Assembly (NCBI GenBank): GCA_001799715.1
Contig: MGTZ01000030.1
Coordinates: 1 to 64,000 of the forward strand
DNA length: 64,000 nucleotides
Direction: 5' to 3'
Origin: Elusimicrobia bacterium GWB2_63_16
Lineage (GTDB): Bacteria > Elusimicrobiota > Elusimicrobia > Elusimicrobiales > UBA9959
Shown here: positions 10,860-43,591 of the stretch, piece after piece
Numbering within the stretch: the stretch's first letter is position 1
How the letters are laid out: each line of letters starts with the position of its first letter
Notes under the pieces: generated by a model
Seen by the model: the letters and a program-made list of their open reading frames with translations, nothing else
Database searches by the model: none
Told to the model about the DNA's origin: nothing
Program-made: the position numbers and the translations under genes

Positions 10860-11705
10860 TCAGATCCTCCCGTAGTCCAGCAGGGCTTTAAAAAGCGCTT
10901 TGATCTTTTGCGCGCGGTTCAGGCGCACCCGTTCCTCTTTGATCCTGAAGCCGCCGGCCTCTATCTTGCCCAGCAGCTCCCGGTACAGCGCGCCCATGGC
11001 CAGGGCCGGCGCCAGCCGGCGCTTCTGCCCCCGGGCCGCCAGGGCCAGCGCCCCGGCGTAATACTCCCGGGCGCGCGCGGCCTCGAATTTCATCAATTCT
11101 ATAAAATTGGGGCTGTATTGGGAACCGCCGAGGTCCTCCGGCCGGCAGCCGAAGCGCTCGAGGTCCTCCAGGGGCAGGTAGACCCGGCCCGCCGCTAGGT
11201 CCTCCGCAGCGTCGCGGATGATGTTGGTAAGCTGCACGGCGTAGCCCATCCGCTCGGCCAGTTCATGCGCCCGCTCGTCCTCGTAGCGGCAGACGGCCAG
11301 GCAGGCGAGCCCCACCGCCGAGGCCACGCGGTACATGTACCGCTCCAGGTCGGCCGCCGTCCTGAACGGGGCGGGGGCTACGTCCATCTCCACCCCGTCG
11401 AGCAGCAGCAGGAAATGCTCCCGCTTTAGGGGGAAGGCGGCGATGGCGCCGGCCAGGTCGCGGGCCAGCGGCGTGTCCGGCACGTCGCCGGAGAAAAGCC
11501 CTTCCACGCCGGCGCGCCAGGCGGCGAGCCGCGCGCGCTTCTCGGCCGCCGGGGCGGCGGGGTCGTCGGCGATGTCGTCGGCGGCGCGGGCGAAGCCGTA
11601 GTAGGCCGAGAGCGCCGCGCGCTGTTCCTTGTCGAGGAAGAAAAAAGCGGGCCCAAATGAGGATTGGCTGGGGACGTTGATGACTATATGACTATTGTGT
11701 GGCAC
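10860..11705 (-). CDS. Squalene/phytoene synthase family protein
   Basis: [12 protein letters not shown] and [29 protein letters not shown] motifs. GTG start lies inside an inverted-repeat element. Confidence 0.88.
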
Positions 11706-11772
11706 CTTGGCGTTGTGATGGCTCTCTGAGATATTATGGTCGTGGAATGGTCAAATAGTCATCAGCGTCCCC
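11670..11772. repeat. Imperfect inverted-repeat element with GGGGACG termini (REP/MITE-like)
   Basis: Left GGGGACGTTGATGACTATATGACTATT versus reverse complement of right end GGGGACGCTGATGACTATTTGACCATT. Confidence 0.8.
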
Positions 11773-36631: not shown

Positions 36632-36715
36632 GCGCGGGTGGCGGAACTGGCAGACGCGCACGGCTCAGGACCGTGTGACCGAAAGGTCTTATGGGTTCAA
36701 CTCCCTTCCCGCGCA
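36632..36715 (+). tRNA. tRNA-Leu (anticodon CAG)
   Basis: GCGCGGGTGGCGGAACTGGCAGACGC...CTCAGGA...GGGTTCAACTCCC...CCCGCGC A. Confidence 0.94.
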
Positions 36716-36750: not shown

Positions 36751-36798
36751 ATTTGTCTCGCAGGCCCTGCCGGCTGACCGGAACGCAAAATAGGCATT

Positions 36799-36990
36799 GC
36801 GCGGTCCGGCTCGTCGCTCGCTCATAGAGCGTGCGCGGCGGAAGAGGGCCTGCGGTCCTCCGCCGGCGAAGAACTCGCTCGGCACGCAGTGCCTCGCTCA
36901 GACATTCTTCGCCGCCGCCTTAATGATAGGCGGTCCGCTTCGGACCTTGGCCCTGCGCACTAAAATCGCTCCCGACGAGCCGGACCGCGC
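36799..36990. other. 192-bp noncoding multibranch structured element
   Basis: Perfect 18-bp inverted repeat GCGCGGTCCGGCTCGTCG (36799-36816) / CGACGAGCCGGACCGCGC (36973-36990), enclosing further stems: CGCTC/GAGCG, GAGGGCC/GGTCCTC (one GU), GGCGAAGAA/TTCTTCGCC, GGCAC/GTGCC, GGTCCG/CGGACC. Confidence 0.75.
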
Positions 36991-37098: not shown

Positions 37099-37356
37099 AT
37101 GTGCCTCGCCGTCCCCGGGAAGATACTTTCCCTCAAGAACAATAACGCGGAAGTGGATTTCAGCGGCGTCCGGCGCCAGGTCTCGCTGGACCTGGTCCCC
37201 GACGCTAAGAAGAACGATTACGTGCTCGTCCACGCTGGCTTCGCCATACAGGTGCTCGAGCCCAAAGAAGCGGAGGAAACGCTGAAGATCTTCGCCGAGA
37301 TCTACGGCAAGGACCACGCCGACGCCTCCGGGCCGCTGGGGCATACCAACCCATGA
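37099..37356 (+). CDS. hypC: Hydrogenase maturation chaperone HypC
   Basis: MCLAVPGKILSLKNNNAEVDFSGVRRQVSLDLVPDAKKNDYVLVHAGFAIQ. Confidence 0.95.
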   Translation: MCLAVPGKILSLKNNNAEVDFSGVRRQVSLDLVPDAKKNDYVLVHAGFAIQVLEPKEAEETLKIFAEIYGKDHADASGPLGHTNP

Positions 37357-43488: not shown

Positions 43489-43591
43489 AGGGGACGCTGC
43501 TTCCTATCTTCCTAATTGTCTGCTGGCTTGAAAATTCTACAGATAGCGCAACCGCGCCGAAAGGTTAGGAAGATAGGAAGCAGCGTCCCCT
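43489..43591. repeat. Perfect inverted-repeat element (27-bp arms) with GGGGACGCTG termini
   Basis: AGGGGACGCTGCTTCCTATCTTCCTAA (43489-43515) and TTAGGAAGATAGGAAGCAGCGTCCCCT (43565-43591), 49-nt centre. Confidence 0.92.

Follow-up and report, generated by a model that had tools for sequence, protein, structure and literature searches.

A dispersed hairpin element with a conserved core and copy-specific paired arms in Elusimicrobia

A structured element between tRNA-Leu and hypC

The analysed stretch of DNA (the window, 64,000 nucleotides) carries a tRNA-Tyr/tRNA-Leu pair followed by hypC, at the positions given in the preliminary description. Between tRNA-Leu, which ends at 36715 and has a terminator hairpin ending at 36752, and hypC, which starts at 37099, lies a structured element at 36799-36990; the spacings previously reported between these features are correct. 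The 18-bp left outer arm (36799-36816), whose sequence is specific to this copy, pairs with the right outer arm (36973-36990), its perfect reverse complement, as had been described, and 156 nt lie between the arms. These nucleotides form the conserved core (36817-36972), which on the top strand starts with CTCGCTCATAGAGCG and ends with CTAAAATCGCTCC. Both the complete element and its core are assigned to the minus (bottom) strand, the one with conserved folding. The core contains two inner stems, TGCGC at 36832-36836 with GCGCA at 36955-36959 and AGGGCC at 36845-36850 with GGCCCT at 36949-36954, as well as a central hairpin at 36865-36913 and a hairpin CCGCC/GGCGG at 36915-36933 with the conserved loop TTAATGATA. 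In the central hairpin, the previously noted 9-bp stem GGCGAAGAA/TTCTTCGCC (36865-36873/36905-36913) and the GGCAC/GTGCC pairing enclosed by it (36881-36885/36889-36893) were both found in place. Across copies of the element, the TGCGC/GCGCA stem displays exchanges of G-C with T-A and of G-C with C-G.

The minimum free energy of the window element is -120.2 kcal/mol for the top strand and -124.8 kcal/mol for the bottom strand, corresponding to z scores of -5.5 and -5.1 relative to dinucleotide shuffles, with 0 of 200 shuffles folding equally well. No Rfam family reached its gathering threshold for this element and nothing credible appeared even at E<=10, so a known RNA family was rejected, in agreement with the earlier failure to recognise one. 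A coding gene was likewise rejected, since the short ORFs are unconserved and frame-shifting indels occur between the cores of different copies, in line with the initial impression that no convincing ORF is present. With respect to an intrinsic terminator, no T run follows either arm in the window, and none is evident in the composition of the flanks of other copies.

Several other features were observed in or near this spacer. Directly upstream of the element, at approximately 36774-36790, GACCGGAACGCAAAA resembles the left end of a second palindromic repeat class, GGGGACCGGAACGCAAAA...TTTTGCTAACCCGGTCCCC, whose paired arms are likewise copy-variable. In genome G009, the tRNA-Leu/hypC spacer (L133) holds a shortened copy of the element with a core of about 65 bp from which the inner hairpins are deleted, and with arms nearly identical to those of the window copy. 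In the corresponding spacers of G013, G030, G022 and G025 (L137, L138, L134 and L140), a duplicated tRNA-Leu 3' end lies downstream of tRNA-Leu and is split by the palindrome GCGGGCCATAATTATGGCCCGC.

Dispersal, organization and insertion of the element

A sequence search of the 2.87-Mb genome that contains the window (62 contigs) identified 8 places with matches to the element, and a covariance model built from 32 element copies recovered 4 full and 3 partial copies; the genome carries 4 full and 3-4 partial copies in all. Matches were also found in 15 of 31 genus relatives, including the assembly Elusimicrobia bacterium HGW-Elusimicrobia-3 among those searched, with up to 13 per genome, the weakest of these matches being short. 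BLAST returned no element matches in relatives outside the genus, while the covariance model recovered elements of this architecture from three further genera of the family and, among the 147 genomes sampled from the class, none from outside the family. Phage and plasmid records yielded no element match, and presence on phages or plasmids was rejected, the pattern matches on viral contigs showing no core beyond the pattern stretch. In the literature searched, no account of comparable repeats in Elusimicrobia was found. At G000:C28:13185-13398 (L015, L255) lies a variant that keeps the core ends but has 19-bp arms and a different structured interior.

The core, approximately 156 bp, could be readily aligned across 64 near-complete copies, is often 86-98% identical between them, and contains conserved unpaired motifs. 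For copy pairs with a core identity of at least 95%, arm identity is only about 50% (54%) and flank identity 25%. Within a copy, however, the arms pair at a mean of 16.85 of 18 positions, compared to 8.93 (sd 0.29) when arms were shuffled among the 53 copies of the main group. The fraction of copies paired remains at about 0.77-0.92 through position 18 (0.77 at position 18 itself) and is 0.38 at position 19.

Comparison of related genomes revealed what is inserted. At one locus, G009 has a clean empty site where G024, G028 and G005 are occupied, and no hairpin or lone arm is present in this empty site. A second empty site, from the comparison of G028 with G024, agrees, although its immediate flanks align less well. 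As these sites show, the insert includes both arms; should the empty genomes instead have undergone precise loss, this would still mean that arms and core are mobile as a single unit. In approximately 464 kb of the window's own genome, short-loop hairpins of arm length amount to only a handful, all terminator-like, with no unoccupied hairpins of the element's kind, and solo arms are scattered no more widely than expected by chance. Taken together, the empty sites, the hairpin survey and the lack of excess solo arms fit neither insertion into pre-existing palindromes nor inverted duplication of the target. No clear direct repeat indicative of a target-site duplication was present at the clean empty site, and no target motif was found in the flanks of the copies. 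The element is, then, a conserved core with copy-specific paired 18-bp arms, dispersed and inserted together with both arms, and the combination of variable arms with a constant core is the reverse of the usual look of such elements.

Folding strand and turnover at orthologous loci

Read on the top strand, arm mismatches within the genus comprise 25 A.C and 8 G.T, and those in the other genera 20 A.C and 2 G.T. An A.C mismatch on the top strand corresponds to G.U or G.T on the bottom strand. The A.C excess in the genus derives in part from the innermost pair, but once that pair is left out a count of 13 versus 4 (p = 0.049) still remains for the inner 13 pairs. In the bottom-strand core alignment, columns exchange G.U with A-U or C-G (156 GU compared to 11 AC). 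Folding energies pointed to the same strand. With RNA parameters, the bottom strand is better by 9-11 kcal/mol in 60 of 64 genus copies and 17 of 17 copies from other genera; with DNA parameters it is better by about 4 kcal/mol in 62 of 64 and 16 of 17; and the RNAalifold fold of the alignment scores -120.8 for the bottom strand versus -99.4 for the top. Related copies are not independent in these statistics, but the other genera provide an independent repetition. The mismatch asymmetry and the energies imply that it is the window's minus strand that folds, either as RNA or as single-stranded DNA, and on the same grounds the top strand was rejected as the functional one.

Gene context was assigned for 62 copies with a codon-composition gene caller. 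Most lie between co-directional genes (51 of 62), with 8 between convergent and 3 between divergent genes, commonly a few bases past a stop codon (median 9 nt on the left side). Of the 51 co-directional cases, 34 have the top strand as the sense strand and 17 the bottom strand, so that the folded strand is usually antisense to the message, which argues against a simple read-through RNA function.

At loci shared between species on the basis of both flanks, the core lies in opposite orientations in 5 of 16 cases. Core similarity is approximately the same between orthologous and non-orthologous copies (0.885 and 0.886, respectively, for G009/G024; 0.922 and 0.897 for G024/G028), indicating that cores are homogenized or replaced within genomes. 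The arms, for their part, stay with the locus in many orthologous pairs. In 14 such pairs with related arms, 19 paired changes were counted versus 23 one-sided changes, with about 1.2 paired changes expected by chance. The stem preservation proposed as a check on the preliminary description holds among homologues, with many paired changes keeping the stems. The 19 paired arm changes consist of 12 transversions and 7 transitions. This transversion-rich composition fits poorly with copied point mutations or with drift through wobble intermediates, and it may point to occasional wholesale replacement of arms. Homogenized arms and inverted spacers are known outcomes of template switching between inverted repeats (PMC8604942), as are multibase compensatory changes (PMC8794818), and we infer that template switching acts on the arms of this element, although template switching alone does not explain the fixed 18-bp arm length.

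These results refine what had been proposed for the locus. The idea of a new structured element stands insofar as the element belongs to no known RNA family, but it is a dispersed mobile repeat rather than a feature of a single locus. The suggestion of a structured RNA or cruciform-forming DNA at the tRNA/hypC locus was incomplete in that it is the minus strand that folds and the core is flipped at orthologous loci, which, together with the dispersal, makes an RNA gene bound to this location less likely.

Proposed mobilization, alternatives and relation to known repeats

Based on the data presented above, we lean toward viewing this sequence of approximately 192 bp as a non-coding, non-autonomous mobile element that is confined to one family and mobilized via its folded, single-stranded bottom strand (as single-stranded DNA or RNA), with arm pairing kept in part by template switching. 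Mobilization would take place when the bottom strand is single-stranded, be it an RNA copy or folded DNA comparable to that of REP sequences, IS200/IS605 ends and attC sites. A putative mobilizing enzyme would act in trans, reading conserved core motifs and needing the ends merely to pair, which would leave the arm sequence free to vary. Template switching between the inverted arms during replication would renew the pairing by copying one arm onto the other, and may invert the core, while conversion or turnover would homogenize cores among the copies within a genome. Conserved ends are what normally defines a mobile element. It is conceivable, and we propose this only tentatively, that the element represents a new class of mobile element with ends recognized by complementarity and not by sequence, in which private 18-bp terminal inverted repeats, renewed in register, enclose a conserved core that folds in a strand-specific manner.

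The replacement of A-U or G-C by G.U on the bottom strand, in the core as well as in the arms of both data sets, the conserved unpaired core motifs, and the more stable fold of the bottom strand in almost every copy would also be expected of a multicopy structured non-coding RNA that is made from the bottom strand, has a cellular or a selfish role as RNA, was spread by transposition and has an outer helix that needs only to pair. We judge this to be rather unlikely, given that the flanks (25% identity) share no promoter or terminator, the bottom strand is antisense to mRNA in 34 of 51 co-directional cases, orientation is unconserved at orthologous loci, and the arms are almost strictly Watson-Crick, with bottom-strand G.U at about 3%. 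It is improbable that the element is a functionless dead or selfish repeat with stems kept perfect by template-switch mutagenesis alone: template switching is known to cause both paired changes, here more than 10-fold over chance in the arms, and inversions such as those of the core (PMC8604942, PMC8794818), but strand-symmetric mutation leaves the G.U/A.C asymmetry, which recurs in other genera, unexplained, as it does the sharp 18-bp limit and the conserved unpaired core motifs. We consider it very unlikely that the element acts in cis on the upstream gene as a 3'-UTR or intercistronic RNA element (a terminator or mRNA stabilizer); its position just past stop codons and its marked rarity at divergent promoters (3 of 62) would suit such a role, but both orientations occur and flip between species at the same locus, the better-folding strand is mostly antisense, and no T-tract follows the outer stem. 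Finally, that only the core is mobile, inserting into the loops of pre-existing hairpins or duplicating its target in inverted orientation, would agree with arms that follow the locus, cores that follow the genome and core-identical copies with unrelated arms, but is largely refuted by the empty sites and by the lack of unoccupied hairpins and excess solo arms, and we give it hardly any credence.

Returning to the element as a mobile one, freely varying yet always-pairing ends around a constant center provide a natural test of structure-only recognition, as well as of the maintenance of bacterial palindromes by template switching. Additionally, "compensatory changes" in a hairpin need not imply a functional RNA, and a G.U versus A.C test is needed to identify the folding strand.

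Bacterial MITEs and small intergenic palindromic repeats such as ERIC/IRU, Correia and RUP are short, non-coding, intergenic, multicopy and taxon-restricted, with terminal inverted repeats, and the element resembles them in all of these respects. In contrast with MITEs, its terminal inverted repeats are not conserved in sequence but are copy-specific and its least conserved part, the interior being conserved, and no related transposase, whether as an autonomous form or a full-length relative, was found among own-genome end-motif matches or at RAYT loci. REP sequences are palindromes of 20-40 bp with an unpaired GTAG or CGTC tag (PMC3733652). Like REPs and REPINs, which are mobilized by RAYT (TnpA-REP), the element is a structured, non-autonomous palindrome between genes, but it is multi-branched, about 190 nt long, and without a GTAG/CGTC-tagged REP pair. 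Lacking both the sequence-conserved ends of a MITE and the RAYT and tagged REPs of a REPIN, it is filed under neither. In integron attC sites, the folded bottom strand is recognized and the stem sequence is variable. The element shares the variable stem sequence and, as we infer for its recognition, the folded bottom strand, but no cassette array was seen, and it is constant inside and variable outside. The mobile double-hairpin elements of mitochondrial DNA (DHE and RHE) have been treated as a class of hairpin-forming elements that move in mitochondrial genomes; unlike the present element they are organellar, and they are not known to be related to it.

RAYT (Y1) genes are present in 27 of 32 genus genomes. 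At 20 RAYT loci from element-carrying genomes, only chance-level matches to the core were found; other palindromes flank these genes, such as AGGGGACG..., TGGGGTCAGG... and AAAAAGGTGCCAGGCACC... at those examined, and a linked RAYT was therefore rejected as the mobilizer. The window itself holds two GGGGACG-ended inverted-repeat pairs with 27-nt arms and 49-nt spacers, at 11670-11772 and 43489-43591, and repeats similar to these flank RAYT genes in relatives. In five genomes (L211, L224, L225, L226 and L227), a RAYT gene flanked by AAATAGGGACAG-type repeats lies in the same intergenic spot, which is occupied in other genomes by the hairpin element.
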